Translations under genes and position numbers: made by a program
In this document: piece by piece, positions 9,429 through 28,296 of the stretch
Numbering within the stretch: position 1 is the first letter of the stretch
Layout of the letters: each line of letters opens with the position of its first letter
The notes under the pieces: generated by a model
Told to the model about the DNA's origin: nothing
Seen by the model: the letters and a program-made list of their open reading frames with translations, nothing else
Database searches by the model: none
Origin: Egibacter rhizosphaerae
GTDB taxonomy: Bacteria; Actinomycetota; Nitriliruptoria; Euzebyales; Egibacteraceae
Reading direction: 5' to 3'
Assembly: GCF_004322855.1 (NCBI RefSeq)
Contig: NZ_CP036402.1
Location: 496,001-560,000 of the forward strand
Length of the DNA stretch: 64,000 nucleotides

Positions 9429-10307
9429 TCAAACGCGCGTTCGCGTCGTAGGAGCCTGCGTCCAGGTCATCCAGCCGACACTGGCGAGCACGAGCGTGAC
9501 ACCGAAGAGCTGCGCAACGGTCAGGAACTGTGCCGCGAGCACTGCCCCCAGAACCGTCGCAGTCACCGGGCTGAGGAGCATCAGCACCGACAGGACGTTG
9601 GGTGAGAGGGTGCGCAGCGCTCGGAACCATAGCCAGTAGGCGACACCGCCGCCTAGAACGGCGAGGTGGAGCAAGCCGAACGCTCCCGGCACGTCGAGGG
9701 CGAGCGGGTCGGCGTCGAGCACCAGCAGCGGTGGGATGAGCAGGATCCCCCCGAAGAACAGCTGCCAGGCGGGCATGCATCGCAGCGAGAGGATCCCTCT
9801 CCACCGCTGCGTCAAGACGAGGCCAAGGGCCATCGAGAGAGCTGCACCCGCCGCTGCGACCACGCCGACCGGGTCGGGTGTGGCGCTCGCTCCCCCGACT
9901 AGCATCGCGACACCTGCCAAGCCCGAGAGGGACGCCACCACCTGGCGGGCTCGTAACGGTTCGGCGAGAAGCATCGCCGACAAGACCCCGACGACGAGCG
10001 GTTGGGTGGCCACGATAGTCGCAGCGAGACCCCCGGGCAGGCGATAGGCGGCCACGAACAGCAGCGGGAAGAAGACGGAGATGTTGCACGCGCTCACGAC
10101 CAAGGTTCGGAGCCGCTGGCCGGAAGCCGGCCAGCGGCCGAGCATCGCGATGAACAGCACACCAATGGGCAGTGCCCGCACCGTCGCCGCCATGAGGGGC
10201 CGACCTGCTGGGAGCAACTCACTCGTCACCAGGTAAGTGGTCCCCCATAGCGCCGGCGCCCCCACGCCGCTCGCAAGGTCACGAGGATCCCAGCCGAGTC
10301 CCGTCAC
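9429..10307 (-). CDS. EamA/DMT-family transporter
   Basis: The 292-residue protein is made almost entirely of hydrophobic helices, about ten, in two repeats, as in the drug/metabolite transporter superfamily. The N-terminal segment ALWGTTYLVTSELLPAGRPL matches the EamA repeat signature. The substrate cannot be deduced; relatives export amino acids, metabolites or drugs. Its ATG overlaps the stop of the VWA gene by four bases, making it the last gene of the molybdenum hydroxylase operon, where it may move the substrate or product of that enzyme. Confidence 0.85.
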   Translation of the reverse strand: MTGLGWDPRDLASGVGAPALWGTTYLVTSELLPAGRPLMAATVRALPIGVLFIAMLGRWPASGQRLRTLVVSACNISVFFPLLFVAAYRLPGGLAATIVATQPLVVGVLSAMLLAEPLRARQVVASLSGLAGVAMLVGGASATPDPVGVVAAAGAALSMALGLVLTQRWRGILSLRCMPAWQLFFGGILLIPPLLVLDADPLALDVPGAFGLLHLAVLGGGVAYWLWFRALRTLSPNVLSVLMLLSPVTATVLGAVLAAQFLTVAQLFGVTLVLASVGWMTWTQAPTTRTRV

Positions 10308-11458
10308 GCCGCCTGCTCGGGATTACCGAGGACGTCTTGCAGCGCCTCCAGGCCCGCGAGGTCACGTCCGGAGAGAAAGTGGTCCACCGACGGGAGCACG
10401 GCAGCGATCCCACGGGCCTCGGGGCGGAACTGCGGATCGCCTTTGAGCGGGTTTACCCAGATGAGCTGGTGCGCGAGACGACCCACGCGTGCGGCCTCCC
10501 GACCTAGGAGCTCCGGGTCACCACGCTCGAGGCCGTCGGACACCAGAATGACCAGGCTTCCCCGGACGCTACCGAGCCGACCGTAGCGGCGGGTGAAGTC
10601 GCGCAGCACAGGACCGAGACGGGTACCCCCGCCCCAATCGGGCACGCGTCCCACGGCGTCCGAGACGATCCTCCTGGGGTCCCGGTGCTCGAGACTGGGC
10701 GTCACGCGGGTCAGGCGCGTCGAGAAGCAGAAAACCTCGACCGGCCCCCACTGCCTCCGCAGCCAGGCCGCGAACAGCAACAGCGCTCGCGCATAGGAAC
10801 TCATGGAACCGGACACGTCGAGGAGCAACACCACGCGCCTAGTGCGCACGGTACGCCGCCGACGCGCCCTAAGATGCGCCCGGTGCGGGCGCACCGCAGC
10901 CTCTCGCAGCCAGCGACGGACATCGACCCGCCGGCCGCGGGGCGCAGCCCGCATCCGGCGCGTTCGCCGCTGCGGCGGGACCAAGTGCCACGAAGCGAAC
11001 GCCTCCTCGAGCCGCGACAGCTCCTCAGCGCTCCACAGGGCGAAGTCCTTGGTGCGCAGGCGCTCGACGTCGGATGCCGCGGCGCCCACCGCGTGCTCAC
11101 GATCGTCGACCCGATCCTCGTCGCGCGTGGTGACCTCAGCGTCGATGAGCTCGGTCTCCGGCTCCTCACGAGATCGTGAGTCCACGACGTCCGTGGTGGC
11201 GCCCCCGCTCAGGAAGTAGGAGGAGAAGAGCCGGTCGTACACGGGCACGTGGACCCGACGTGACACCAGCAGACTGCGTCCAGCCCAGTAGACGTCACGG
11301 AGGTCAACGGGGTCGAGCACGGCGACCCCGCGCACGAACCGTTCCGCGTGGCTCGGCGTGCAGGGGACACCCGCGGTTCGGAGCAGTCGTACGAACCCGA
11401 GGAGGGCGTCCACGAGCTCCCTCCCGAGGGAGGCGACCTCGCGCTCAGCGTCGGCCAT
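10304..11458 (-). CDS. VWA-domain CoxE-like maturation protein
   Basis: The 384-residue protein has a charged, poorly conserved first half and a C-terminal von Willebrand A domain. Its metal-ion site DVSGS is at residues 214-218, with GGTRL and LVSDGLERGD completing the fold. CoxE proteins work with a MoxR-type AAA+ ATPase (CoxD) to assemble the active site of cox-type molybdenum hydroxylases. The gene follows that ATPase gene by 30 bases and overlaps the transporter gene after it. VWA/MoxR pairs serve many different enzymes, so the link to this hydroxylase rests on operon position. Confidence 0.85.
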   Translation of the reverse strand: MADAEREVASLGRELVDALLGFVRLLRTAGVPCTPSHAERFVRGVAVLDPVDLRDVYWAGRSLLVSRRVHVPVYDRLFSSYFLSGGATTDVVDSRSREEPETELIDAEVTTRDEDRVDDREHAVGAAASDVERLRTKDFALWSAEELSRLEEAFASWHLVPPQRRTRRMRAAPRGRRVDVRRWLREAAVRPHRAHLRARRRRTVRTRRVVLLLDVSGSMSSYARALLLFAAWLRRQWGPVEVFCFSTRLTRVTPSLEHRDPRRIVSDAVGRVPDWGGGTRLGPVLRDFTRRYGRLGSVRGSLVILVSDGLERGDPELLGREAARVGRLAHQLIWVNPLKGDPQFRPEARGIAAVLPSVDHFLSGRDLAGLEALQDVLGNPEQAA

Positions 11459-11488: not shown

Positions 11489-12418
11489 CTAGTCCGATAC
11501 GAGGCCCACGAGCGCCTCGCGGGCTGCCTCGAGATCTTCGTGGTCCTTCACGACGAAGCCGATCGTCTCCTCGACGCTCTCTGCCTCAAGCTCGGTCACC
11601 CCGAGCAGCCCGAGGACCCGGGCCCAGTCGATGGTCTCGGCGACGCCGGGAGGCTTGGCGAGCCCGGCGTCCCGCAGGCGCCGCACCGCGTACGTGACGG
11701 CCTCTGCCAGGGTCAGCGGCACCTGGGGGGCGCGTCGGCATACGATCTCCAGCTCGCGCTCGGGCGCGGGGAACTCGATCCAGTGGTACGCGCAGCGGCG
11801 TCGCAACGCGTCGTGCAGCTCGCGAGTGCGGTTGGAGGTGAGGACGACCGCTGGGCGCGTCTCGGCGCGAACGGTGCCGACCTCGGGGATGGAAACCTGG
11901 AAGTCGGAGAGCACCTCGAGCAGGAAGGCGTCGAACTCGTCGTCGGCTCGATCGATCTCGTCGATCAACAGGAGGGCCCCTGCACCCCCGCTGAGTGCCT
12001 TCAGGAGCGGGCGCTCGATAAGGAACCGTCGGTCGAAGGGCTCGAGGTCCTCGCCCCGCTCCATCGCGAGGCGGGCGGCCAGCAACTGCCGCGTGAAGTC
12101 CCATTCGTACAGGGCCAGGCTCGCGTCGATGCCCTCGTAGCACTGCAACCGGATGAGATCCCGTCCGAGGGCGGCGGCTAAGGCCTTGGCGAACTCCGTC
12201 TTGCCGACCCCGGGTTCGCCCTCGAGCAGCAGCGGCTGCCCGAGGGCGAGCGACAGGTGCGCGGCCGTGACAAGGCCCCGGTCGGCCAGGTATCCGGCGT
12301 CCTCGAGGCGGGCTTGCATCGCCTCGCGCGGTGGTGGATCCCCGCGGCTCACACGCGGCCCCGTCGACCTGCCGGAGCCGGTCCGCTGCGGCGGCGCATC
12401 CCCCGGCTCAGGCCGCAC
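11489..12418 (-). CDS. MoxR-family AAA+ ATPase, CoxD-like
   Basis: The 309-residue ATPase has Walker A GEPGVGKT at residues 67-74, Walker B LLIDEID with the acidic pair, the sensor segment VLTSNRTREL, and the MoxR C-terminal domain. These ATPases act as chaperones; in the cox system CoxD is required for insertion of sulfur and metal at the Mo/Cu site. The GTG start lies inside the end of the Mo-subunit gene (11-base overlap). An internal ATG at codon 34 is also possible, since the first 33 residues are rich in Pro, Gly and Arg and probably unstructured. Confidence 0.88.
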   Translation of the reverse strand: MRPEPGDAPPQRTGSGRSTGPRVSRGDPPPREAMQARLEDAGYLADRGLVTAAHLSLALGQPLLLEGEPGVGKTEFAKALAAALGRDLIRLQCYEGIDASLALYEWDFTRQLLAARLAMERGEDLEPFDRRFLIERPLLKALSGGAGALLLIDEIDRADDEFDAFLLEVLSDFQVSIPEVGTVRAETRPAVVLTSNRTRELHDALRRRCAYHWIEFPAPERELEIVCRRAPQVPLTLAEAVTYAVRRLRDAGLAKPPGVAETIDWARVLGLLGVTELEAESVEETIGFVVKDHEDLEAAREALVGLVSD

Positions 12419-14846
12419 CCTCGCTTGCCGCGTGGATCATCTCGAGCACGCGCTCCGGGTTCAGAGGCCCGTCGCTCACCTGCACACCCCAGGGCCGCAA
12501 GGCGTCCTCGACCGCGGCCATCAAGACCGTCGGCGTCCCGATGCAGCCCGCCTCGCCGACACCCTTGGTGCCCAACGGCGTGATCGGCGACGGCGTCTCG
12601 AGGTGGCGCATCTCCACCGGTGGAGTGGAGAGGAAGTTGGGCAACTGATAGTCGGTCAACGTTGGGGCGAGCATGCTGCCGTCATCGCCGTAGGCGAGGT
12701 GCTCCAGCATCATGCCGCCGTAACCCTGAATCATCCCCCCGACGACCTGGGCCTCCACAATGCGGGGGTTGATCATCTTACCGACGTCGTGGACGACCCA
12801 TAGCCGTTGCACGTCCACCTGGCCCGTCTCGGGATCGACCTCGACCAGGGCACCCTCCGCTCCGCTGGCGTGCGCCGGATACAGCCGCACCCGTCCATTC
12901 TCGTCGGGGACCCAGTTGACCTGGGGGTTTGTCCAGACGAAGTTGCCTTCCAGGGTCGGCTTGTCCTCGCCGGGCAGGGCCGCGTAAGGGCCGGGGAACA
13001 GGTAGACGGCCTTCGCGACCTCCCCGATCGTCATACGCTGCGAGGGTGCCCCACGAACCGACACCGCGCCGTCGCCGAGATCCAGGTCCTCGACGTCGGC
13101 CTCCATCAGGTTCGATGCGGCCTTCAGCAGCTTGCCGCGCACCTCGTCCGCGGCCCTGTGGACCGCTGTAACCCCGTAGGTCGCACCGCGACTGGAGAAC
13201 GATCCAAGCCCGTAGGGCACGGCGTTGGTGTCGCCGAACACAACGCGCACGTCGTCGGGCGAACAGCCGAGGACGTCCGCGGTCACCTGCGCGATCGCCG
13301 TCTCGACGCCTTGCCCGATGTGCTGCATCCCGGTCAAGGCCATCACTTGACCGTCGGGGGTGATGCGAACCGAGGCCGACTCGTACCCGTTGAACATCGA
13401 CATGGGAATGGAGGCCGACGAGGGCTCCAAGACGGTGACGATCCCCAGACCCAGGTAACGGCCCCCGGCCTGAGCCTCTTTCCGCCGACGCTCGAGTTCG
13501 TCGAGATCCATCGCCTTGACCAGCTCGTCGAGACACTCGGTGAAGCTCCCGCTCTCGATGATGGGGCCACCGGGGGTCTCGTACGGGTACTCTGTGACGA
13601 GGTTACGCCTGCGTAGGTCGATACGATCCAGCGCGAGCTGCTCCGCGGCCGCGTCCATGAGCCGTTCGATACCGAGGTTCGCGATGTCCTTGCCGTAGCC
13701 TCGGTACGCCCCGTACGGAGCCTTGTTCGTGACGACGCACTCCACCTTCGCCCAGTACGCTTTCGGGGTGTACGGTCCGCTGCCGTAGGTGCCGCCGACG
13801 AGCAAAGCACCGAGGCCGCCTGTCCGCACGGCACCGTCGCAGCCCATGTCCCCGCGCAGATGGTCGCGAACGGCGAGTAGCATCCCGTCGCGCGTGAACG
13901 CCCCCTGGATGTGATAGTCGAAGTCGCGCGACGCGGGACCGCTGGTCATCCACTCGCTCCGGCGCTCGACCCACTTCACTGGGCGACGCGTGGCGACTGC
14001 CATCATCACCGGAATGATCTCGGCATCGACCTGGAGCTTGTTGCCGAAGCCGCCACCAACATCGTTGGCAAGCACCCTGACGTTTGGCTCGGGTATGTCG
14101 AAGGTCGCGGCGAACAGCGTACGGCATTGATGAGGGAACTGAGTCGACAAGCGCACCGTGAGTTGGTTAGCCCGCGGATCGTACTCCGCGACGACCGCAC
14201 GGCCCTCCATGGGCACGCCGCTGTAGCGGTGCGAGGCCACCTCAACCTCGACGATGTCGTCGGCCTGCGCGAAAGCCTCGTCGACGTCCCCGTATGAGAC
14301 CTCCCACACGCACTGACGGTTATCCGGCCAGTCCTCATACAGCAACGGGGGGGTCCCACCGTCGAGCCCGAGGGCTTGATCCATCGTGGTGAGCGGCTCA
14401 AGTACCTCGTAATCGACCTCGATGAGGTCGAGTGCGTCCTGCGCGATGTAGGGATCGTCGGCGGTCACCGCGGCAACGGGCTCGCCACAGTAGTGGACCT
14501 TGTCGACCGCCAGCCCGTAGACGCTGGGCAGCCGCATGTCCAGCAGATCCATCACCGGGGGGATCGGATTCCACAGCGCCCGCGCATCCTCGCCCGTCAG
14601 GACCGTCACGACTCCCGGCAGCTCCTTGGCCCGCCTGGTGTCCACCCCGCGGATCCGTGCATGAGCATGTGGGCTGCGCAAGATCGCGCAGTGCGTTTGT
14701 CGGGGCACCTCGCCGTCACCCGCGAACAGACCGTAGCCGGTGACGAGTCTGCGATCCTCCTTGCGCGGAATGCCCCGCCCCACCCATGCCGAGCCAGCGC
14801 CGTCAACCCTTGCCTGGTCCACTGAAGCGTGCGTCTCATCGGTCAT
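12408..14846 (-). CDS. molybdenum hydroxylase large (Mo-cofactor) subunit, CoxL/xanthine dehydrogenase family
   Basis: The 812-residue catalytic subunit shows the family segments in order: HAHARI, the cofactor loop NDVGGGFGNK (261-270), the active-site loop AYRGYGK (380-386) and the C-terminal GVGEAG with the base glutamate. The loop differs from true form I CO dehydrogenase (AYxCSFR) and from form II (AYRGAGR). It therefore lacks the cysteine that binds copper and is unlikely to oxidise CO. The enzyme more probably hydroxylates a heteroaromatic ring or an aldehyde, using water as oxygen source. It is the third gene of an operon coding for FAD, Fe-S and Mo subunits, with ATGA coupling on the upstream side. 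The substrate is unknown; context suggests the first step of the neighbouring CoA-dependent pathway. Confidence 0.88.
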   Translation of the reverse strand: MTDETHASVDQARVDGAGSAWVGRGIPRKEDRRLVTGYGLFAGDGEVPRQTHCAILRSPHAHARIRGVDTRRAKELPGVVTVLTGEDARALWNPIPPVMDLLDMRLPSVYGLAVDKVHYCGEPVAAVTADDPYIAQDALDLIEVDYEVLEPLTTMDQALGLDGGTPPLLYEDWPDNRQCVWEVSYGDVDEAFAQADDIVEVEVASHRYSGVPMEGRAVVAEYDPRANQLTVRLSTQFPHQCRTLFAATFDIPEPNVRVLANDVGGGFGNKLQVDAEIIPVMMAVATRRPVKWVERRSEWMTSGPASRDFDYHIQGAFTRDGMLLAVRDHLRGDMGCDGAVRTGGLGALLVGGTYGSGPYTPKAYWAKVECVVTNKAPYGAYRGYGKDIANLGIERLMDAAAEQLALDRIDLRRRNLVTEYPYETPGGPIIESGSFTECLDELVKAMDLDELERRRKEAQAGGRYLGLGIVTVLEPSSASIPMSMFNGYESASVRITPDGQVMALTGMQHIGQGVETAIAQVTADVLGCSPDDVRVVFGDTNAVPYGLGSFSSRGATYGVTAVHRAADEVRGKLLKAASNLMEADVEDLDLGDGAVSVRGAPSQRMTIGEVAKAVYLFPGPYAALPGEDKPTLEGNFVWTNPQVNWVPDENGRVRLYPAHASGAEGALVEVDPETGQVDVQRLWVVHDVGKMINPRIVEAQVVGGMIQGYGGMMLEHLAYGDDGSMLAPTLTDYQLPNFLSTPPVEMRHLETPSPITPLGTKGVGEAGCIGTPTVLMAAVEDALRPWGVQVSDGPLNPERVLEMIHAASEGAA

Positions 14847-15355
14847 GCCTGCTGCCCTTCCGTCCGCCCCTGACTGCCGTCAGCAGCCCGCTGCACCGCG
14901 CGCACAATGTTCTGGTAGCCAGTGCAACGACAGAGGTTGCCCACCAACCCCTGCCGCACCGTCTCCTCGTCCGGGTCCGGATGTCGTTCCAACAGGTCAA
15001 CCGCAGCCATCACCATTCCTGGCGTGCAGAAGCCGCACTGCAGCGCGAACTCGGCGCAGAATGCCTCCTGGACGGGATGCATGGACTGTTCGCCGGAGAG
15101 CCCCTCGACAGTCTCGACCTCGCAGTCGTGGGCCTCCACGGTCAGCATCATGCAACTCTTCACGAGCTGGCCGTCGACGCGGACGGTGCAGGCGCCGCAG
15201 ATGCCCTCTTCGCACCCGATGTGCGTACCAGTCAGCCCGAGCTCCTCCCGGAGGAAATCGGCGAGAAGCTTGCGGGGTTCCACGCGCATTTGATGCGGTT
15301 GCCCGTTCACCGTCACGGCCACAGCCGCGCCGCTCCCGGTATCCATGCTCGTCAT
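14843..15355 (-). CDS. molybdenum hydroxylase small [2Fe-2S] subunit
   Basis: The 170-residue protein carries two [2Fe-2S] clusters. The N-terminal plant-ferredoxin-type cluster uses C48, C53, C56 and C68 (GCEEGICGAC). The C-terminal helical cluster uses C107, C110, C142 and C144 (CGFCTPG and CRCTGY). All eight ligands are present. It passes electrons from the Mo subunit to the FAD subunit. The gene overlaps both partners by four bases, in the usual M-S-L order of cox-type enzymes. Length is typical of the family (about 155-175). Confidence 0.92.
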   Translation of the reverse strand: MTSMDTGSGAAVAVTVNGQPHQMRVEPRKLLADFLREELGLTGTHIGCEEGICGACTVRVDGQLVKSCMMLTVEAHDCEVETVEGLSGEQSMHPVQEAFCAEFALQCGFCTPGMVMAAVDLLERHPDPDEETVRQGLVGNLCRCTGYQNIVRAVQRAADGSQGRTEGQQA

Positions 15356-16218
15356 GCCTGCACCCTCCTGGTGGCGGTTCCTCCCTCGGCAAGCAACGCC
15401 CGTCGAATCAGGACACGCACGACGCTGAGGCGGTACTGCGCCGAGGCGTGCAGGTCGCTGACAGGCTCGAGGCTGGTCGCGTCGAGTGCGGCGGCCGCCT
15501 CGCGGCAGGAGCCCTCGTCGACGACGCGGCCGAGGATGGACCGCTCGACGTCATCAAGGCGGATGGGCGTCTGGTGGATGCCACCGGCCGCGACTCCCGC
15601 GCGCTCGACGGGGTCACCGGCAAGGGCGACCCCCACGTTCACGATGGGCGGACCCTGCGGCTGCCGGGCAATCTCTAGGTAGGCGCTGATGGAAGCCCAC
15701 CCGGGGACTCGGAGCTCCGTGACAAGTTCGTCAGCAGACAGCGTGGTGCGCCGGAACCCCGCGAACAGGGTTTCCACGGGGATCTCCCGCTCATCGCTGC
15801 TGGAGCGAACCACCACCGTCGCACCGAGCGCGATCAGCATCGGTGCAAGGTTGCCGCGTGGATCCGCCAAGCACAGGGCACCGCCGACGGTCGCCCGGTT
15901 GCGAACCTGTTGGTCCCCGAGGAGTTTCGCGGCCTCCGCAAACCCAGGCACACGGGCGCTCACGCGCTCGTCCACCGTCAGTTCGGAGATGGTCGTCAGC
16001 GCCCCAATCCGCAAGCCGCCGTCGGCGCCGTCGTCGATGCCACGCAACTCGCCAAGGCCCTTGACGTCCACAAGGTGGTCAGCGGTATCAGCTCGAAGCT
16101 TTAGGGCCTGCAAGAGTCCCTGTCCACCGGCCAAGACCCGACCACCGTCTTCCAGACTCCGGAGCGCGGAAGTCAACTGGTCCGGCCTCGTGTACGCGAA
16201 CGCAGCGGGTCGCACCAT
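15352..16218 (-). CDS. molybdenum hydroxylase medium (FAD-binding) subunit, CoxM-like
   Basis: The 288-residue flavoprotein belongs to the PCMH-type FAD subunits. The first FAD motif reads AGGQGLLQ near residue 31 (consensus AGGQSL) and the second TVGGALCLADP near 110. The C-terminal CO-dehydrogenase flavoprotein domain follows. It collects electrons from the two Fe-S clusters and gives them to an external acceptor. It is the first gene of the hydroxylase operon. A perfect palindrome at 16270-16283 lies 52 bases before its ATG, where a repressor could block transcription. Confidence 0.9.
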   Translation of the reverse strand: MVRPAAFAYTRPDQLTSALRSLEDGGRVLAGGQGLLQALKLRADTADHLVDVKGLGELRGIDDGADGGLRIGALTTISELTVDERVSARVPGFAEAAKLLGDQQVRNRATVGGALCLADPRGNLAPMLIALGATVVVRSSSDEREIPVETLFAGFRRTTLSADELVTELRVPGWASISAYLEIARQPQGPPIVNVGVALAGDPVERAGVAAGGIHQTPIRLDDVERSILGRVVDEGSCREAAAALDATSLEPVSDLHASAQYRLSVVRVLIRRALLAEGGTATRRVQA

Positions 16219-16269: not shown

Positions 16270-16283
16270 ACCGACTAGTCGGT
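16270..16283. promoter_or_regulatory. palindrome ACCGACTAGTCGGT, probable TetR operator
   Basis: This perfect 14-base palindrome lies between the first hydroxylase gene and the TetR gene. With two flanking bases it matches the site at 17185 in 13 of 16 positions; both keep the arms ACCGA and TCGGT. The likely ligand is the TetR protein encoded at 16368-17018. Confidence 0.6.
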
Positions 16284-16367
16284 CGAGACTACGGCGGGGC
16301 GAGTAAGCCCGTCAAGGGGTACGCGAGACCGGAGCCCGGCAGGTGACCTGGGGGCGAACCCATCCTC

Positions 16368-17018
16368 CTACGTCGAACTGGGCGCTGTCTGTGGTGTCGG
16401 CGTCGACGACGCGGGATTACCGGCTCGCAACCCCTCGAGGAGCAGGCCCCAGAACCGATCTGCGATTTCCTCGGTCGCCAGCCCGCCGTCGGGCCGGAAC
16501 CACTGATAGGCCCAGTTGCACATCCCAAAAAGCGCCAAGCTCGTCAGTCGCGGGTCCACTTCGCGGAACTCGCCCCGCTTCACGCCTCGACGGACGACGT
16601 CCTCGACGTAGGCCTGGTAGCGATCCCGCTTGGCCTCGAGCGTGCCCCGGTACTCATCGGTGAGCTCGCGATGGTGCTCGAAGAACACCCGAACGCTGCC
16701 CCGATGCGTCGCCATGAGCCCGATGATGTCGGCGATGACCTCACGCAGCTCCTCGGACGGCTCGTCGGAGAGTCGCGAAGCGTGCTGCTCCGCGCGCTCG
16801 AGCAGGAGGTTGATGAAGTCTTCGTGGATCCAAAAGAGGATCTCCTCCTTACTCTTGAAGTAGTGGTACAGGGTCGGCTTGCGGACCCCGACCGCGTGCG
16901 CGATGTCCTCCATCGTGGTCTGGTGGTAGCCCTGCGCGTCGATCAAGGACGCTGCCTCGCGGGTAATGGCAACCCACCGGGCCTGGCCGTCAGCTGATCT
17001 CGGTGCGCGCTCCGCCAT
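16368..17018 (-). CDS. TetR-family transcriptional regulator
   Basis: The 216-residue regulator has the TetR helix-turn-helix in its first 60 residues (MEDIAHAVGVRKPTLYHYFKSKEEIL) and an all-helical ligand domain of the type found in regulators of acyl-CoA and aromatic catabolism. The start is the ATG at 17018, directly after GGGAGGGAGC; a TTG four codons earlier is less likely. It sits between the hydroxylase operon (same strand, downstream) and the ligase operon (divergent). Related palindromes lie before both operons, so it probably controls both and, through the second site, itself. The inducer may be a CoA thioester or the pathway substrate. Confidence 0.9.
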   Translation of the reverse strand: MAERAPRSADGQARWVAITREAASLIDAQGYHQTTMEDIAHAVGVRKPTLYHYFKSKEEILFWIHEDFINLLLERAEQHASRLSDEPSEELREVIADIIGLMATHRGSVRVFFEHHRELTDEYRGTLEAKRDRYQAYVEDVVRRGVKRGEFREVDPRLTSLALFGMCNWAYQWFRPDGGLATEEIADRFWGLLLEGLRAGNPASSTPTPQTAPSST

Positions 17019-17184
17019 GCTCCCTCCCAATCGTCGGCCCCTCCACCGTCACCTGCACTGAGCTAGCTCGTCGCCCACGCGCCCGACGCCCGAAGGGACG
17101 CCGCGTTCGCGCGGTGCGAGGCCGTCGCGCCACTGCAGACGGTTGACGGGTCGTAGTGCTGCTGCGTATCGTAGCCGATCACCG

Positions 17185-17198
17185 ACCGACCGTTCGGT
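17185..17198. promoter_or_regulatory. imperfect palindrome ACCGACCGTTCGGT, probable TetR operator
   Basis: The site keeps the ACCGA/TCGGT arms of the palindrome at 16270. It lies 48 bases before the hydrolase ATG, in the gap between the divergent tetR and hydrolase genes, where one repressor could control both promoters. Confidence 0.55.
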
Positions 17199-17246
17199 CG
17201 TGAGTCGAGTGTGGACGTTGATGTCGGGGCGGAGGAGGAGACAGCC

Positions 17247-18134
17247 ATGCAGCGACCGGTGGAGTTCAAGTCCGAGGGCCTGACAGTAAAGGGCGTCCTC
17301 TGGATCCCCGACGATCTCGAGGAGGGAGAGCGGCGTCCCGGGGTCGTGACCGCGAACGGCTTCACCTTCCCCAAGGAGTTCCTGCTCCCCTCGATCGCCG
17401 AAACCTTCATGAACGCGGGCTACGTTGCCCTAACCTTCGACTACCGCTTCCTCGGCGAGAGTGAGGGCGAGCCCCGAGGGCAAGTCCATGCACTCAAGCA
17501 GGTCGAAGACGTCCTTAACGGCTTGTCCTTCCTCGAAACACAACCGCAGGTAGACCGGCATCGGCTCGGCGCGTGGGGTGCCTCCTACGGCGGCGGCCAC
17601 GTACTCTACGCTGCGGCTCACGATCAACGCATCAAATGTGTCGCGGCGAACCTTCCCGTCACCAACGGCCGCCGTTGGCTTCGAGTGCAGCGGCACACCG
17701 CCGAGTGGTACGAGTTTCTCGACCGGGTCGCCGCGGACCGCCAGCGTCGCTTCGAGGGCAAGCCTTCCGAGATCGTAACCGCCTTCGACATCTTCGTGCC
17801 GGATGACGAGACACGGGCGAACTTCGAGAACGGCTGGAAGACCGTCGATCGGTGGGAGCCCTACGTGACGATGGACACCGCCGAGTACTGGATCCAGTAC
17901 GCCCCGGAGTTCTACGTGGACCGCATCTCGCCACGCGCCATGCTGCTCACCCACGCCCAGAACGACCGCATCACCCCGGAAACCGAGTCCATCAGCGCAT
18001 ACGAGCGGGCTCACGAGCCCAAGAAGCTCTACTTGTATCCGTCGAAGTACAGCCACTGGGACGGCTACATGCGTGGCGCCGACGTGCACATGGGCACCGT
18101 CGTCGAATGGTTCGACGAACACCTCGGCATCTGA
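17247..18134 (+). CDS. alpha/beta hydrolase
   Basis: The 295-residue enzyme has the alpha/beta hydrolase fold. The nucleophile elbow reads GASYGG, the acid is probably the aspartate of NDRIT, and the histidine lies near the C-terminus in SHWDGYM. It resembles the dienelactone hydrolase/acetylxylan esterase side of the superfamily and could open a lactone, an ester or a C-C bond. The start is the ATG at 17247, six bases after GGAGGAGGAG; a GTG-type extension to 17211 is less likely. It is the first gene of the plus-strand operon, and the ligase follows after 14 bases. The substrate is unknown. Confidence 0.85.
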   Translation: MQRPVEFKSEGLTVKGVLWIPDDLEEGERRPGVVTANGFTFPKEFLLPSIAETFMNAGYVALTFDYRFLGESEGEPRGQVHALKQVEDVLNGLSFLETQPQVDRHRLGAWGASYGGGHVLYAAAHDQRIKCVAANLPVTNGRRWLRVQRHTAEWYEFLDRVAADRQRRFEGKPSEIVTAFDIFVPDDETRANFENGWKTVDRWEPYVTMDTAEYWIQYAPEFYVDRISPRAMLLTHAQNDRITPETESISAYERAHEPKKLYLYPSKYSHWDGYMRGADVHMGTVVEWFDEHLGI

Positions 18135-18148
18135 TCACCCCAGCAAAC

Positions 18149-19702
18149 ATGACGGAGCAGACGACACCGAACCCGCCTTCAGAAGTCGAGGCCGCACTCC
18201 GCGGGGGTCGCGCCTACAACTTCGCGGTCGTGCTGGACCGCGCGGTCCAGCGCTTCCCCGATCGCGTGGCCCTCGTCGAGGGGCACGAGCGTCTCACCTA
18301 CCGCGAACTTGCCCAGCGCGTGCACGCCGTGGCCGCGTGGCTCACGAAGCAGGGCGTCGGAGCCGGCGATCGTGTCGGCGCTGTGCTGACGAACCGCAAG
18401 GAGTTCCTGGAAGTCTTCTTCGGCGTCCTTCGGCTGGGTGGGGTGTTCGTCCCTATCAACTTTCGCCTCGCCGGCCCCGAACTCGCCTACATCGTCGAGC
18501 ACAGCGGCTTGCGTGTCCTGTTCGGGGAAGCCCCTCAACTCGCGCGGCTGGAGGGCCGTACCCCGCTCGGCGTGCAAGTCATGCAGGTCCCGTCCGAGGA
18601 ATACGAAGAACTGGCCACCCCCGGGCCGGAGGTCCCGCTGGCACCGCGCGGAGAGTTCGATCTACAGCGCATCATGTACACGTCGGGTACCACCGGACAC
18701 CCCAAGGGCGTAATGATCCATCACGGCGCGGTGTGGTGGAAATGCCTGAACCAGATCGTGGAGTTCGGTCTCCACGCCGACGAGGTCTTCTTGGCCTCGG
18801 GACCGCTGTACCACGTTGGCACACTCGACCTGCCCGGTGTGGGGGTGCTACTGCAGGGCGGGCGGATCGTGATCCTGCCGCAGTTCGACCCGGTGCAGGT
18901 GCTGAAAACCATCGAAGCCGAGCGCGTCACCTGCACCTTCCTCGCGCCGTCGATGATGAACCGGCTGCTGGCTGAGGCAACCTTCGAGCAGCACGATCGG
19001 TCGAGTCTGCGGGTCATCATCGACGGTTCTGAGAAGATGCCCGCATCGCTGCTCGAGCGGATCCCGGCCGCCTTTCCCCACTCCCACTTCTTCGACGGAT
19101 TCGGCATGACCGAGACGGTGACCAGCGACACGTTCCTCCCCCCGCGCCGCCTCGAGGAGAAGCTCGGATCGGTCGGCACCGAGACCGCCACGATGGAAGT
19201 GCGCGTCGTCGACGACGAGGACCGTGACGTGCCCGCCGGCGAGGTGGGTGAACTCCTGGTGCGCGGACCCAAGCTCTGTCTGGGCTACTGGCGCGACCCT
19301 GAGGCCACGTCCAAGAGCTTTCGCAACGGCTGGTTCCACACCGGGGACATGGCGATCCGGGACGAGGACGGTGACATCACAATCGTCGATCGCAAGAAGG
19401 ACATGATCAAGTCCGGCGGCGAAAACATCGCCTCCGTCGAGATCGAGCGGGTGTTGTACGCACACCCCGACGTGCTCGAGGCCGCAGTCGTCGCACGATC
19501 CGACGAAACGTGGGGCGAAGCCCCCGTCGCGTTCGTGGCCCCTGCGGACGGTGTCGAACTGGACCAGGCGGCGCTGGAGGCGTTCTGTCGCGAGCAGCTC
19601 GCCGGCTTCAAGGTGCCCAAACAGTTCCTCACCGTCGATGCGCTGCCGCGCAACCCGTCGGGGAAGGTGCTCAAGCGCGAGCTACGCGCACGGGTCGAGT
19701 GA
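18149..19702 (+). CDS. acyl-CoA ligase (AMP-forming)
   Basis: The 517-residue member of the ANL superfamily joins a carboxylic acid to CoA through an acyl-adenylate. The P-loop is YTSGTTGHPKGV. The A5 motif is GFGMTET, the hinge region GWFHTGDM and KDMIKSGGENIASVEIE, and the catalytic lysine motif PRNPSGKVLKREL ends the protein. Length matches medium- and long-chain or aromatic acid CoA ligases; acid specificity cannot be read from motifs. The ATG at 18149 begins MTEQTTPNPPSEVEAALRGG; in-frame sequence upstream overlaps the hydrolase gene and is not protein-like. It probably activates the acid made by the preceding enzymes. Confidence 0.92.
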   Translation: MTEQTTPNPPSEVEAALRGGRAYNFAVVLDRAVQRFPDRVALVEGHERLTYRELAQRVHAVAAWLTKQGVGAGDRVGAVLTNRKEFLEVFFGVLRLGGVFVPINFRLAGPELAYIVEHSGLRVLFGEAPQLARLEGRTPLGVQVMQVPSEEYEELATPGPEVPLAPRGEFDLQRIMYTSGTTGHPKGVMIHHGAVWWKCLNQIVEFGLHADEVFLASGPLYHVGTLDLPGVGVLLQGGRIVILPQFDPVQVLKTIEAERVTCTFLAPSMMNRLLAEATFEQHDRSSLRVIIDGSEKMPASLLERIPAAFPHSHFFDGFGMTETVTSDTFLPPRRLEEKLGSVGTETATMEVRVVDDEDRDVPAGEVGELLVRGPKLCLGYWRDPEATSKSFRNGWFHTGDMAIRDEDGDITIVDRKKDMIKSGGENIASVEIERVLYAHPDVLEAAVVARSDETWGEAPVAFVAPADGVELDQAALEAFCREQLAGFKVPKQFLTVDALPRNPSGKVLKRELRARVE

Positions 19703-19742: not shown

Positions 19743-20783
19743 ATGCAGGCCGACATAGGGGTTGAGCTCGCCGGGATGTTCGATCCCGAGGGCACGCGGG
19801 ACGTGATCCACCGGGTCGACGCGCTGGGCGGCGACTTCCTGTGGTGGGCCGACTATCGCTTCTACCGGGACGTGTACAGCATGTTGACCCGCACGGCGCT
19901 GTACAGCGACCGGTTGCGTTACGGCACATTCGTTACCGACCCATTCGCGCGACATCCCGCCCTCACCGCGCTCGCCATGGCCACCGCCGATGAGCTGGGC
20001 GGGGGCCGTGGTGTGCTCGGGCTCGGCGCGGGTGTCTCCGGCCTGCGAGAGATGCGGATCCCGCGAGAGCGCCCCGCCATCCGCATCTCCGAGGCCATCG
20101 ACGTGATCCGCGCGCTGTGGCGCGACGGTGAGGCGACGTACGAGGGGGAGACGGTCTCTTTCGACGGGCACTTGGATTTCGCCGCTCGGCCGCACATCCC
20201 GATCTTCGTCGCCTCCAACTCGCGGCGAACCCTCAGCGTTGCTGGTCGCAGGGCCGAGGGTGTGATCGTGGAGGGCCTCTGCCGCCCGGCCATGCTGGAT
20301 TACGTCTTCGAGCACGTGCAGCGGGGGCTCGACGCCTCTGGTCGCACGTGGAGCGACCTGTACTCGGTTGCGAGGCTCGATCTTTGCATCCATCCCGATC
20401 CGCAGGTCGCACGCGAACTCGCCCGCCACCGGGTCCAACACTATGTCTCGGTTCACGGAGCCGCCCGTTGGCCCGACCTGGCCGAGCTGCTGCCTGACGG
20501 CTTGGAGGACGAGATCAAGGCCGCTGGCTTCACCCACGACCCCGCGGTCGTGGAGCCGCTCGTCGCGCAGATCCCCGACGAAGCGGGGGAGCTGATCGCG
20601 TTGGTCGGCGACCCTGACGAGGTCGGCCGGCAGCTCGAGCGCGTGAGCGCGATGCCGATCAGTCAGATCAGCGTGTTCCCGATCCCCAGCCCCCCGCGCG
20701 GTCACTCGATTCCCGACGTGCTAGAGCTGTTCGCCTCGGTCCTGCGCCAGCTGAGCCAGGCTGGCGAACGGACCGCGCCGTGA
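19743..20783 (+). CDS. luciferase-like (LLM class) flavin/F420-dependent oxidoreductase
   Basis: The 346-residue protein has the TIM-barrel pattern of the bacterial luciferase superfamily, with TALAMATADELGGGRGVLGLGAG in the barrel core (positions about 78-100) and PIFVASNSRRTLSVAGRRAEGVI later. In actinobacteria most members use coenzyme F420, some FMN. They reduce or oxidise alcohols, imines or CoA-bound substrates, or act as monooxygenases. The reaction here is unknown. The gene is third in the ligase operon and overlaps the SDR gene by four bases, so it very probably belongs to the same pathway. Confidence 0.85.
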   Translation: MQADIGVELAGMFDPEGTRDVIHRVDALGGDFLWWADYRFYRDVYSMLTRTALYSDRLRYGTFVTDPFARHPALTALAMATADELGGGRGVLGLGAGVSGLREMRIPRERPAIRISEAIDVIRALWRDGEATYEGETVSFDGHLDFAARPHIPIFVASNSRRTLSVAGRRAEGVIVEGLCRPAMLDYVFEHVQRGLDASGRTWSDLYSVARLDLCIHPDPQVARELARHRVQHYVSVHGAARWPDLAELLPDGLEDEIKAAGFTHDPAVVEPLVAQIPDEAGELIALVGDPDEVGRQLERVSAMPISQISVFPIPSPPRGHSIPDVLELFASVLRQLSQAGERTAP

Positions 20784-21553
20784 GCGGCGCGTCCATGCTC
20801 GAATCCGCGCTCGCGGGCAAGGTGACGTGGGTCACCGGTGCGAGCCGGGGCCTCGGCGCCGCGATTGCACACGGCCTCGCTCGGGCGGGCGCGACGCTCG
20901 CGCTGACTGCGCGGCGCCCCGACGGCCTGAGCGAGACGGCGAAACGCGTGGAGGCCGAAGGCGCCTCGGTCGAGTGCCTGCCCGCGGATGTCAGCGACGC
21001 CACCGCCGTCGCCGCGGTCGCCGGCGACATCACCCACCGCCTCGGGCGGATCGACGCGCTCGTGCACGCTGCGGGCATCAGTCCGACGGTCGAGCGAGCC
21101 GAGACCCTTGAGATAGCCGAGTGGCAACGCATCATCGACAGCAACCTCGGTGGGGCGTTCCTCTGCGCTCGGTCGGCTGCGCAACAGATGCCGCCTGCTG
21201 GGGGCAGCGTGCTCCTTATCTCGTCGATCCACGGCACCGTCGGGATGCCTCGGCTCGCGGCCTACGGGGCGAGCAAGGGGGGCATCGAGGCACTCACCCG
21301 CTCCCTCTCCCTCGAGTGGGCGCACCGTGGCATACGTGTGAACGCGGTCGCGCCCGGCTACTTCGAGACAGATATGACTTCGTACGTCCGCCAGGACCCT
21401 GAGTGGCGGGACCAACTGCTGGCGCGGATTCCCATCGGCCGCTTCGGCACACCCGAGGAGCTAGTGCCCACGGCCCTGTTCCTGGTGAGCGACCTCGCCT
21501 CGTACATCACCGGGACGACGGTACACATCGACGGAGGGTGGCTTGCGGCCTGA
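20780..21553 (+). CDS. short-chain dehydrogenase/reductase (SDR)
   Basis: The 257-residue classical SDR has the nucleotide-binding TGASRGLG near residue 19, NLGGAF, the catalytic serine in LLISSIHGT, and YGASK with the active-site Tyr and Lys. The C-terminus ends in the usual GTTVHIDGGW. It interconverts an alcohol and a ketone with NAD(P). The GTG start overlaps the preceding stop (GTGA), showing coupling. A hydroxyacyl-CoA or cyclic alcohol is a plausible substrate in this operon, but specificity is not visible. Confidence 0.9.
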   Translation: MSGASMLESALAGKVTWVTGASRGLGAAIAHGLARAGATLALTARRPDGLSETAKRVEAEGASVECLPADVSDATAVAAVAGDITHRLGRIDALVHAAGISPTVERAETLEIAEWQRIIDSNLGGAFLCARSAAQQMPPAGGSVLLISSIHGTVGMPRLAAYGASKGGIEALTRSLSLEWAHRGIRVNAVAPGYFETDMTSYVRQDPEWRDQLLARIPIGRFGTPEELVPTALFLVSDLASYITGTTVHIDGGWLAA

Positions 21554-21659: not shown

Positions 21660-23102
21660 ATGGGGCTTCGGACTGCGGATCAGTACTTGAAAGGACTGCG
21701 GGACGACCGTCGCGTCCGGTATCGCGGCGAGACGGTTGAGGATGTCGTCGCGCACCCCGAGCTCGGTCTGGCGGCGCGTCACGCGTCCCTGGATTTCGCT
21801 CTCGCGGAGCGAGCCTCCCACAGCGACCTGGCGATCCGACATGACGGGGACCAGCCATACTCCGCCTACTTCCAGGTGCCCCGCACCACTGATGATCTCG
21901 CCGCTCGTTCTGCGCTCGTCGAGGCCGCCACCCGCGAGGGCGACACGCTCGTGCTGCTCATCAAGGAGATCGGCACCGACGCCTTGTTCGCCCTGATGCG
22001 AGTTCTCGAACGATACGGGCTCGATGAGGGTCAAGCCCGCGTCCACGAGTTCCATCGGCACTGCCGCGACGGCGACTTGTCCCTTGCGGTGGCCCAGACC
22101 GACGTGAAAGGGGACCGCTCGAAAGGCCCTTCCGAGCAGGCCGACCCGGACCTGAACCTGCGTGTTGTCGAGACGCGCGACGAGGGGATCGTGGTGCGAG
22201 GCGCCAAGAGCCACACCTCTTGCTCACCCTACGTGGACGAGCTACTCGTGCTACCCAGCCGCCGGATGCGCCCCGGCGAGGAGGATTGGGCGGTCGCCTT
22301 CGCGGTCCCCGTGGACACCCCGGGGCTCACGCTGTATGCGGCGGACTTCCTCCATGGCGACTTCTCGTCGTTCGATCGGCCCGTGAGCTCCCGCCACAAA
22401 ATGATTGAGACGCTGACGGTCTTCGACGACGTCCTGGTCCCCTGGGATCGCGTCTTCCTCCACGGCGAGGCAGAAGCGGGCGGCGCAACAGCCCTCACGT
22501 TCGTTGAGTACCACCGCTTCACTGCCGTCAGCTACAAGTTGCCCCTGCTCGACGCGCTCGTCGGCACGGCGATCGCGGTCGCCGAGGCCAACGGGATAGG
22601 CCGCGCGGGCCATGTCCGCGACAAGTTGACCTGGCTCGCCGGCTACGCCGAGACCGCGCGGGGCCTGATCCAGCTCGCCGCCCAGCGCGGTGACGAAGAA
22701 AGTGGGATCGCGTACCCGGACGTGTTCACCACCAACCTCGCCAAGTGGACGTTCGCCCGGGACATTCACTACGCGTTCGAAGTCGTGCAGGACCTCGCCG
22801 GGGGCCTGCTCGTGACCGGCCCCTCCGCGGTTGACTGGCAGGCGCCGGAGATCCGGCCGATCCTCGAGAAGTACCTCGCGGCAGCTTGGCCGGCGGCCGA
22901 CCGCATGGCCGTGATGAACCTTGCGCGGGATCTCACCACGGACCTTTACGGTGGCTACCAAGCGGTGCTCGCCCTGCATGCTGAGGGGTCGCTTGAGGCT
23001 GAGAAGCTGCAGATGTACCGGGCATACGATCACGAGCCGGCGCTCACCTACGCCCTCGGCCTCGCCGGCCTGCGCGACACGCAGGACGATCCGACGGCTT
23101 GA
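21660..23102 (+). CDS. HpaB / 4-hydroxybutyryl-CoA dehydratase-family flavoprotein
   Basis: The 480-residue protein belongs to the family joining 4-hydroxyphenylacetate 3-monooxygenase (HpaB) and 4-hydroxybutyryl-CoA dehydratase (AbfD). The strongest match is QTDVKGDRSKGPSEQADPDL at about 147-166, followed by GIVVRGAKSHTS. AbfD holds a [4Fe-4S] cluster with three cysteines and a histidine. Here the histidine is kept (YHR, H285), but the expected cysteine seven residues later is Tyr, and no CxxxC occurs near residue 100. A cluster-free flavin enzyme is therefore more likely. No flavin reductase (HpaC) gene is adjacent. The ATG follows GAGAAGGAG. It stands between the SDR and thiolase genes, which suits an acyl-CoA or ring substrate. 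Confidence 0.82.
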   Translation: MGLRTADQYLKGLRDDRRVRYRGETVEDVVAHPELGLAARHASLDFALAERASHSDLAIRHDGDQPYSAYFQVPRTTDDLAARSALVEAATREGDTLVLLIKEIGTDALFALMRVLERYGLDEGQARVHEFHRHCRDGDLSLAVAQTDVKGDRSKGPSEQADPDLNLRVVETRDEGIVVRGAKSHTSCSPYVDELLVLPSRRMRPGEEDWAVAFAVPVDTPGLTLYAADFLHGDFSSFDRPVSSRHKMIETLTVFDDVLVPWDRVFLHGEAEAGGATALTFVEYHRFTAVSYKLPLLDALVGTAIAVAEANGIGRAGHVRDKLTWLAGYAETARGLIQLAAQRGDEESGIAYPDVFTTNLAKWTFARDIHYAFEVVQDLAGGLLVTGPSAVDWQAPEIRPILEKYLAAAWPAADRMAVMNLARDLTTDLYGGYQAVLALHAEGSLEAEKLQMYRAYDHEPALTYALGLAGLRDTQDDPTA

Positions 23103-23141: not shown

Positions 23142-24332
23142 GTGGGTGCGATCAGCGACGTTCTCGTCCTGAGCGGGACCCGCACGGCAGTGGGCAAGTA
23201 CGGCGGCGCGTTCCGGGAGACCCCTCCGAGCGAGCTTGCTGCCGCGGTTGTCCGCGAGGCGGTCCGGCGAGCCAGCGTCGAGTCAGACGCGGTCGAGCAC
23301 GTGGTCTTCGGTCACGTCATCAACACCGAGACCCGCGACATGTATCTCGCTCGAGTCGCGAGCGTGCACGGGGGCGTGCCGATCGAGGCGCCGGCACTCA
23401 CGGTGAACCGGTTGTGCGGCAGCGGCCTGCAGGCGATCGTCTCCGCCGCGCAGAGCATCACGCTCGGGGACGCGTCGGTGGCGGTCGCCGGCGGCGCGGA
23501 GTGTATGAGCCGCGCGCCCTACTGGGTGCCCCACGCGCGCTGGGGCGCGCGCATGGGCGACGGGTTGCTCGTCGACGCGATGCTCGGCGGCCTCACCGAT
23601 CCCTTCGACGACTGCCACATGGGTATCACCGCCGAAAACGTCGCCGAGCGCTGGAACATCTCCCGCGAAGACCAAGACGCCCTCGCAGTCGAAAGCCACC
23701 AGCGGGCCGCTCGCGCCCGCGACGATGGCCGCTTCGACGAGCAAATCCTCCCGATCGAGGTGCGCAGCGACAAGGCGAACGCGACGGTGACCGCGGACGA
23801 GCACATCCGTCCAGACACCGACGTCGATCGGCTTGGCAAGCTACCGCCAGCGTTCCGCGAGGGCGGCAGCGTGACCGCCGGAAACGCTGCGGGGATTAAC
23901 GACGGCGCCGCGGCCCTCGTCCTCGCCAATGAGAGAACCGCCGAGGCCCTTGGGGCCGCCCGCCCGCTCGGCCGACTACTGGGATACGCCCACGCAGGCG
24001 TCGAGCCAAACGTCATGGGCATCGGGCCAGTGCCGGCGGTGCAGCGCGTGCTCGACGACACGGGACTGGTCGCCAACGATCTGGACGTCATCGAGCTGAA
24101 CGAGGCGTTCGCCGCACAGGCGCTCGCGGTGATGCGCGATCTGAAACTCCCCCCGGAACGAACCAATCCCAACGGCAGCGGCATCTCGATCGGCCATCCG
24201 GTCGGCGCCACCGGCGCGGTCCTGACCGTCAAAGCGCTCTACGAGCTAGAGCGTGTTCAGGGTCGGTACGCACTCGTCACGATGTGCATCGGCGGGGGGC
24301 AAGGCATCGCCGCCATCTTCGAACGCGTGTAA
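23142..24332 (+). CDS. thiolase (acetyl-CoA C-acyltransferase)
   Basis: The 396-residue thiolase cleaves a 3-ketoacyl-CoA with CoA to release acetyl-CoA, or runs the reverse. All active-site parts are visible: nucleophile Cys in NRLCGSGLQA near residue 90, NEAFAAQ, the histidine in GHPVGATGA, and the second Cys in MCIGGGQG. The start is a GTG at 23142, preceded by AGGAAGG. It is the last gene of the operon and provides the final step of a CoA-dependent degradation pathway, together with the dehydrogenase at 8511. Confidence 0.93.
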   Translation: MGAISDVLVLSGTRTAVGKYGGAFRETPPSELAAAVVREAVRRASVESDAVEHVVFGHVINTETRDMYLARVASVHGGVPIEAPALTVNRLCGSGLQAIVSAAQSITLGDASVAVAGGAECMSRAPYWVPHARWGARMGDGLLVDAMLGGLTDPFDDCHMGITAENVAERWNISREDQDALAVESHQRAARARDDGRFDEQILPIEVRSDKANATVTADEHIRPDTDVDRLGKLPPAFREGGSVTAGNAAGINDGAAALVLANERTAEALGAARPLGRLLGYAHAGVEPNVMGIGPVPAVQRVLDDTGLVANDLDVIELNEAFAAQALAVMRDLKLPPERTNPNGSGISIGHPVGATGAVLTVKALYELERVQGRYALVTMCIGGGQGIAAIFERV

Positions 24333-24610: not shown

Positions 24611-25807
24611 CTATCGCTCGGCGGTCTCGACCGCCTCCCAAAGCACCTCCGCGATATGGACCACTGGAAGGCCGTGTTGGGCGAGCTGCAGCAGGCAGCC
24701 GGGGTTACCGGACGTGACGCGTGTGGCCCCCGTGGCCGTCACGGCGTCCCGCTTGCGAGCGCCGATCGGCTCGGCGAGGTCGGGGCGAAGCGCGTTGTAG
24801 GCACCCCCGGCCCCGCAACATCGTTCCCCATCGGCTGTCCTGCGCAGCTGACCCGGCCCCAGCACGCGGTCGAGCAGGGCGACCGGCGCACTCTCGACGT
24901 GCTGGACGTTGCGGAGATGGCAGGCGTGCTGGTAGGCGACCGGTTCGCGGAGGACTCCCGCCGGCAAGGTGTTCGGGTCCACGAGTTCGCTCATGTCCCG
25001 GACGCGGTCGGCGAACACTCGCGCTTCCTCCGTGCCGAGCAGCCGTCCGTACTCCTTCATGGCCGCGCCGCAACCGGCGCTGTCAACGACGACCGGTCCT
25101 GAGGTGCCCCGGTGCGCGGCGATCACCTCCGCGGCCGAGCGCGCCGCCCGGTCCTCGAACCCCTGGTGCAGGTCGAGCGCCCCGCAGCAAGCGCCACGCC
25201 GGGCGGCGTCGACCCGGTAGCCCGAACGCTCCAGCAGCCGCAGCGTGGCCCCGTGCGCGCCCCGGAACCACACGTCCATCACGCAGCCCCGGAACAGCCA
25301 CGCATCGGCCCGTTGGCGCGCCGGCAGACGCCCAGCGAGCTCACGGAGCCGGACCCTCCTCGCGAGTCGCAACCGACGCGGGAGTAGACGGTCGGCACGC
25401 GTCAGCTGGGCGAGCGAGAGCAGGATAGTGCCAAGGCGCAGGAGTACCGGCCTCCGCAGCAACCCGAGGCCCCAGCGCACCAGTGATGATCGCAGGCGCC
25501 CACCGCCCCTCGAAGGGGCGTGCGCACGAGCAGCCTCGATATCGGTCCGTGCGGTCTCCATGAGCGCGCCGAACTCCACGAGCGAGGGGCACGCTGGCTC
25601 GCATGCCCGGCACTGCACGCAGCCTTCCATGCTGTCGACGTAGTCGGGGTCGAGCGTCGACAGTTCCCCGTCGTGGACGAGACGCATCCCCACGAGCCGA
25701 CCTCGTGGGTTGTGCTGCTCGAGCCCCGTGACGGCGTAGGTCGGGCACGCCGAGAGGCACATTCCGCAACCGACGCACTGGGCAAGCTTGTCCGCATCGA
25801 AGGTCAT
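24611..25807 (-). CDS. glcF: glycolate/D-lactate oxidase iron-sulfur subunit
   Basis: The 398-residue subunit has two ferredoxin-type [4Fe-4S] motifs, CVGCGMCLSACP near residue 12 and CVQCRACEPACP near 65. Two CCG domains follow, with ACCGALDLHQG and CCGAGGAYN, as in GlcF and LldE/GlpC proteins. It accepts electrons from the flavin subunits and passes them to the quinone pool at the membrane. It is the last of three overlapping genes in glcD-glcE-glcF order. The 278 bases between its stop and the thiolase gene hold nothing I recognise. Confidence 0.9.
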   Translation of the reverse strand: MTFDADKLAQCVGCGMCLSACPTYAVTGLEQHNPRGRLVGMRLVHDGELSTLDPDYVDSMEGCVQCRACEPACPSLVEFGALMETARTDIEAARAHAPSRGGGRLRSSLVRWGLGLLRRPVLLRLGTILLSLAQLTRADRLLPRRLRLARRVRLRELAGRLPARQRADAWLFRGCVMDVWFRGAHGATLRLLERSGYRVDAARRGACCGALDLHQGFEDRAARSAAEVIAAHRGTSGPVVVDSAGCGAAMKEYGRLLGTEEARVFADRVRDMSELVDPNTLPAGVLREPVAYQHACHLRNVQHVESAPVALLDRVLGPGQLRRTADGERCCGAGGAYNALRPDLAEPIGARKRDAVTATGATRVTSGNPGCLLQLAQHGLPVVHIAEVLWEAVETAER

Positions 25808-26811
25808 CGCTGGAATCTCCAGGGCGCGAGCACGCCAACGGGATCGAGCGCCTGTTTCACCGCAGCGTCGAGCGGGCGGGGTCCCTCGAAGGCCGCGAAC
25901 AGCGGCTCGGCTCCGGCGGCCTCAAGGCACAGGACGCGTCCGGACCGCTCGCGGACAAGGCGGGTGAGGGTGGGGACCTCGGTGGCCGACGCGTCGGCGT
26001 GGATGATGCCGAGGCCCTCCTCGACGAGGTAGCGACCCGTGAGCTGCCCCACGACCGCCTCGACCTCCGGGGGCGGCACCGCGATCCGCACGGCTGAAGG
26101 CACCTCCGGCGCCGGCGCCTCGAGGAGTCCTCCCCGCTCCGCGTCACGGTCGCAATCGGAGGGATGCCCCTCCAGGCGAACATAGGTGTCGCCGGCATCG
26201 CGCAGGACCGAAGCCGCGGTACGTAGCTCACGCCGCGCGGCGGCGTCGAGCCGACCGGCGACGCGGTACCAGCGCGCCGCAGCAGGTCTCGGCCGAACGG
26301 TGAGGGTGATCTCGGTGAGGATGCCGAGGGTGCCCCACGACCCGACGAGCAGCCGCGTCACGTCATAGCCGGTGACGTTCTTCACCGTGCCGCCCCCGCT
26401 GCGAACGATCTCGCCCTCTGCGGAGACGAATCGGGTGCCGAGCACCCAGTTGCGCAGGTGGCCTGCGCCGAGCCTTCGGAGCCCGGTGAGCCCGCTTGCG
26501 ACTTGCCCACCGACCGTCGTGGCAGGCCCCTCGATCGGGCACTCCTGCCCCACATCGGCGAGGACCCCATCGAGTTCCCGCCACGGCGTCCCCGGCCGAA
26601 CCCGGACCACGAGATCGGACGGGCGGTGGTCAACGACACCGGTCAGGTTGCGTGTGGAGACCGCCGGGTCGGATTCGGTCCGCGCACCGACGAGCGTGCC
26701 TGCTCCGACGACGTCGCAGGCAGCCCGGGCGGTGAGCTCGCGCACCGCCTCGACGACCTCGTCCTCGCTCGTCGGCAGACGTTCAACGGGTGTCGCCGGG
26801 GACTCGGTCAT
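25804..26811 (-). CDS. glcE: glycolate/D-lactate oxidase FAD-binding subunit GlcE
   Basis: The 335-residue protein has a PCMH-type FAD domain with VRVRPGTPWREL and ATTVGGQVASGLTG, then GGGTVKNVTGYDVTRLLVGSWGTLGILTE (about 145-173), a strong GlcE signature. The ATG at 26811 overlaps the glcD stop (ATGA), and the glcE stop overlaps glcF in the same way. GlcE forms a complex with GlcD and GlcF that oxidises glycolate or D-lactate to glyoxylate or pyruvate. It is shorter and more divergent than GlcD, as usual. Confidence 0.9.
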   Translation of the reverse strand: MTESPATPVERLPTSEDEVVEAVRELTARAACDVVGAGTLVGARTESDPAVSTRNLTGVVDHRPSDLVVRVRPGTPWRELDGVLADVGQECPIEGPATTVGGQVASGLTGLRRLGAGHLRNWVLGTRFVSAEGEIVRSGGGTVKNVTGYDVTRLLVGSWGTLGILTEITLTVRPRPAAARWYRVAGRLDAAARRELRTAASVLRDAGDTYVRLEGHPSDCDRDAERGGLLEAPAPEVPSAVRIAVPPPEVEAVVGQLTGRYLVEEGLGIIHADASATEVPTLTRLVRERSGRVLCLEAAGAEPLFAAFEGPRPLDAAVKQALDPVGVLAPWRFQR

Positions 26812-28265: not shown

Positions 28266-28296
28266 CCTGCCACATCCTCGACACGAAGCCATGTGG

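Follow-up and report, generated by a model that had tools for sequence, protein, structure and literature searches.

PfmR (TTHB023 of Thermus thermophilus HB8, PDB 3VPR) is a TetR-family regulator described as controlling acyl-CoA and thiolase genes, with the consensus operator TACCGACCGNTNGGTN (PMC7022988). Two overlapping PfmR sites upstream of the thiolase gene TTHA0987 jointly read ACTACCGACCGTTCGGTAAG and are reported there to be bound in two registers, with KD values of 0.65 and 4.7 nM. PaaR (BCAL0210 of Burkholderia cenocepacia) is a TetR-type repressor of phenylacetate genes whose operator, ACCGACCGGTCGGT, occurs in several catabolic promoters; mutation of the repeat served to show that negative control depends on it, and the protein is released by phenylacetyl-CoA (PMC2770484, PMC9493321). 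AibR from Myxococcus xanthus controls isovaleryl-CoA biosynthesis, going by the title of Bock 2017, and its structures (PDB 5K7F/5K7H/5K7Z) include isovaleryl-CoA and operator DNA.

We analysed a window of 64,000 nt from Egibacter rhizosphaerae (GCF_004322855.1, NZ_CP036402.1, positions 496,001–560,000), in which a gene for a TetR-family repressor of 216 aa (16368–17018, minus strand) lies between two divergent operons. The protein matches Pfam TetR_N (60.7 bits) and TetR_C_24 (123.6 bits), both above cut-off, and combines an N-terminal helix-turn-helix with a helical ligand domain; its predicted model has nine helices (pLDDT 92). PfmR and AibR ranked as its first two matches in the PDB by sequence and by fold alike, which places it in the PfmR/AibR subgroup by nearest neighbour. 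AibR is the top fold match (33% identity), and PfmR is 36% identical over its fold match.

Two palindromes flank the tetR gene, and we predict them to be its operators. Site 1, ACCGACTAGTCGGT (16270–16283), is a perfect 14-bp palindrome. Site 2, ACCGACCGTTCGGT (17185–17198), has perfect 7-base arms when extended to CGACCGA-N4-TCGGTCG (17183–17200). The first-pass annotation had placed both correctly, and its count of 13 matching positions in 16 is right once the two right-hand flanking bases (CG) are included. It had also put each site about 50 bases ahead of the first gene of an operon; by measurement, 51 bp separate site 1 from the coxM-like ATG (16218) and 48 bp separate site 2 from the ATG of the hydrolase gene (17247). 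The exact pattern ACCGA-N4-TCGGT occurs nowhere else in the window, where base composition predicts about 0.06 copies. This confirms that the palindromes are real, with one site at a similar distance ahead of each operon flanking tetR.

As ACCGAC-N2-GTCGGT pseudo-palindromes at target promoters, the two sites fall into the PfmR/PaaR operator class. The exact 14-mer of site 2 is contained in the proven PfmR operator at TTHA0987 as given in PMC7022988, and the PaaR operator nearly equals the site-2-type palindrome, a likeness of operators. The systems differ in organism and target genes, and no molybdenum hydroxylase operon is among the PfmR targets listed in that source. An orthologue of PfmR or PaaR with the same regulon (phenylacetate or fatty acid genes) was considered and rejected, the neighbours not being paa genes.

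Promoter-like elements precede both sites. On the plus strand, a consensus scan found TTGACG-N18-TATCGT at 17143–17172 (one found versus 0.1 in shuffles), and operator 2 starts 12 bases past it, over the expected transcription start. A weaker element on the minus strand, TTGACG-N18-TAGTCT at 16286–16315, was read from the sequence with eight of twelve consensus bases; it lies below the threshold of the scan and ends 2 bases ahead of operator 1. Given these spacings, both operators would sit at or just past the transcription start, whereas the PaaR operator lies between -35 and -10.

The plus operon opens with an alpha/beta hydrolase (S15/UilS-like, 17247–18134; Pfam and NCBIfam, domain-scanned without its first codon), followed on the same strand by an AMP-forming acyl-CoA ligase (18149–19702; Pfam AMP-binding, NCBIfam PRK06187 subfamily above cut-off), a luciferase-like (LLM, F420-type) oxidoreductase (19743–20783) and a short-chain dehydrogenase (SDR, 20780–21553), both by Pfam and NCBIfam. 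An HpaB-family protein of the flavin-dependent oxygenase superfamily (21660–23102; Pfam HpaB_N and HpaB) and a BktB-like thiolase (23142–24332; NCBIfam) complete it. Directly after it, on the opposite strand, lies a putative glycolate-oxidase operon of GlcD/GlcE/GlcF type (24611–28292), ahead of which there is no exact palindrome of this type.

The minus operon encodes a molybdenum hydroxylase. Reading away from site 1, all on the minus strand, it consists of a CoxM-like FAD subunit (15352–16218; Pfam FAD_binding_5 and CO_deh_flav_C), a CoxS-like [2Fe-2S] subunit (14843–15355; Fer2 and Fer2_2), a molybdopterin subunit of the CoxL/xanthine-dehydrogenase type (12408–14846; MoCoBD_1/2), a MoxR/CoxD-like AAA ATPase (11489–12418; AAA_5) and a CoxE-like VWA protein (10304–11458; VWA_CoxE). 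None of the hydroxylase subunits reached a cut-off in the NCBIfam scan. For aerobic CO dehydrogenase the large-subunit scores were 532.6 bits against a cut-off of 950 and 439.9 against 991, and we rejected that assignment. CO dehydrogenases have AYXCSFR or AYRGAGR; the molybdopterin subunit carries AYRGYGKD. Judging from these sequences, it is probably not a CO dehydrogenase.

We compared 46 loci that encode relatives of the window TetR. Together they hold 32 copies of the palindrome, thirty of them intergenic and twenty-nine before a gene start, with non-coding DNA making up 18% of the sequence in these loci. A subset of 39 loci (469 kb) contains 31 copies of the motif, which puts it at the top of 320 GC-matched palindromes; the next has eight copies, and the other twenty-nine permutations of the half-site average 0.8. 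Counting related loci as independent makes the nominal p-values smaller than they should be; the enrichment far exceeds this effect of kinship. An exact copy is missing from about half of the homologue loci, and the type of recognition helix is linked to the presence of the site at borderline significance only (Fisher p = 0.05).

The closest parallels come from two Thermoleophilia loci, L031 and L040, whose regulators have the recognition helix GxRKPTLYHY in common with the window TetR. Just before tetR both carry the palindrome, as ACCGACYGGTCGGTCGA and ACGACCGACYGGTCGGTCGA. In L031 a TTGACG–TATCGT element, with both hexamers identical to those at site 2, has its 18-bp spacer taken up by the palindrome; an hpaB gene (62%) adjoins tetR, and an SDR gene is divergent from it. 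L040 has CoxS-, CoxM-, MoxR- and CoxE-type genes within about 5 kb of tetR. Close relatives of this TetR thus have one or the other half of the two-operon arrangement next to them, but not both together.

Other arrangements were also seen in the homologue set. In four Pseudonocardia loci a divergent promoter holds the palindrome twice, at a spacing of about 147 bp and 1.5–3.7 kb from the tetR homologue; in L055, the locus inspected, an enoyl-CoA hydratase-like gene stands on one side of the pair and a branched-chain-type ABC transporter operon on the other. Seven loci, mostly from Nocardioides, show CCGAC-N2/N6-GTCGG repeats in overlapping registers upstream of tetR, a pattern suggesting that the operators of this clade are doubled or shifted.

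The bare motif is far from unique in the Egibacter genome. We counted 18 exact copies of ACCGA-N4-TCGGT in 4.64 Mb, against two of the reversed control pattern and about 4.5 predicted from composition, and by a simple codon-usage gene call about ten of the 18 fall inside genes. The first-pass annotation had treated the pattern as a promoter motif and proposed scanning the promoters of the genome for it; of the 18 copies, the two window sites are the only promoter pair. A 20-bp matrix, built from 26 distinct sites in other genomes and including no window site, was applied to the window, to 400 kb sampled from the same genome and to all 18 exact sites. Sites 1 and 2 scored 28.8 and 23.5 bits and ranked first and second in the window, the next value being 9.5. 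The maximum in the sampled 400 kb was 16.4 bits, and the best of the other exact sites reached 22.4 bits in a copy inside a gene. A random genome-wide distribution, which would have counted against the idea, thus describes the bare ten-base motif in part; it does not describe the full operator, since the two window sites score best by the matrix. The specific marker is the extended operator, not the bare motif. Another copy, ACCGATCGCTCGGT, stands in a divergent promoter at about 2.197–2.200 Mb (L080, 3822–6621), ahead of an amidohydrolase–tetR (TetR_C_6) pair and a GNAT gene, possibly as a second operator of the same class for a different TetR.

Searches for a conserved pairing of the two operons gave no second case. 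Among 66 genomes of the same class and 396 from a phylum sample there was no close orthologue at E ≤ 1e-40; CoxL had no match at E ≤ 1e-220, the hydrolase had matches of 40–42% only, and none of the genomes searched had both operons together. As no other examined genome pairs them, it is the shared operator that would link the hydroxylase to the ligase pathway.

We consider it very probable that the palindromes are operators of the intervening TetR repressor, which would block both operons until an acyl-CoA releases it. At each site a TetR dimer would sit immediately past the -10 element, covering the probable start of transcription, and keep RNA polymerase off both the hydroxylase operon and the operon running from hydrolase to thiolase. 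Activation of the pathway substrate would yield an intermediate in acyl-CoA form, plausibly made by the ligase; bound by the repressor, it would cause release and joint induction. Binding of isovaleryl-CoA by AibR and the neighbouring CoA ligase both point to such an effector, so the window TetR is probably acyl-CoA-responsive. The first-pass annotation had named this TetR as the natural regulator of both sites, and comparative evidence strongly supports that choice: in homologues the palindrome stands at the promoter of the regulator gene or of a neighbour, as in the two Thermoleophilia loci, and the described PfmR and PaaR operators are identical or nearly so to site 2. We infer on good grounds that the two operons are co-regulated by it. 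Against this explanation we count the weakness of the promoter-like sequence on the cox side, the copies of the bare motif inside genes, the homologue loci that lack an exact copy, the borderline helix–site link and the failure to find both operons together in the other genomes searched.

It is hardly credible that the palindromes act as transcription terminators or are inverted repeats that arose by chance. Site 1 does lie about 85 bp past the tetR stop codon, and the closeness of the two sites is weak evidence by itself, since simulated genomes with 18 randomly placed sites have two of them within 915 bp of each other in about 6% of cases. The terminator scan, however, found none, there is no T-run at the palindromes, and a 14-bp palindrome without a loop makes a poor hairpin, so we set the hairpin reading aside. 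Conservation of the palindrome at promoters across genera largely refutes this alternative, chance repeats included. A second alternative is that the sites serve another TetR of the genome, or several in common, with the local protein using a different site. The same palindrome is recognised by several TetR proteins (PfmR and PaaR among them), and the genome encodes at least six other TetR-like proteins, one of which (C1 2197284) lies near another ACCGA-N4-TCGGT. The local TetR, though, has only distant kinship with these paralogues (24–35% identity, partial coverage), and its close relatives have the site at their own genes or nearby; in most site-bearing homologue loci the clade profile detected no second TetR. 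We regard control by another TetR as quite unlikely.

It is also improbable that only one site functions or that control is one-sided, the other palindrome being a relic or a chance occurrence. The lower score of site 2, the weak promoter at site 1 and the failure to find the synteny of both arms in the other genomes searched would fit such an arrangement. Yet both sites outscore every other genomic site tested and are nearly equidistant from their start codons, and site 2 equals a PfmR operator proven in the source cited above. Operators of the intervening repressor at both promoters therefore remain our preferred reading.

The type of control is already known from PaaR and PfmR, and the window circuit is a new example of it. 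What the circuit would serve is a more tentative matter: we put at a little less than an even chance the fuller picture, in which one acyl-CoA-sensing TetR repressor would govern the joint induction of a CO-dehydrogenase-like molybdenum hydroxylase, along with the CoxD/CoxE-like pair for its maturation, and of the CoA-ligase/F420-LLM/HpaB/thiolase operon, the two forming an undescribed catabolic pathway for an aromatic or cyclic acid. The interest lies mainly in this pathway to which the circuit points. For an uncharacterised regulator the sites provide a firm, testable regulon, and they would connect an orphan molybdenum hydroxylase with a degradative pathway that runs through CoA esters. Operators of the PaaR/PfmR type occur across a clade of actinobacterial TetR proteins, which allows the target operons of these regulators to be read from sequence.
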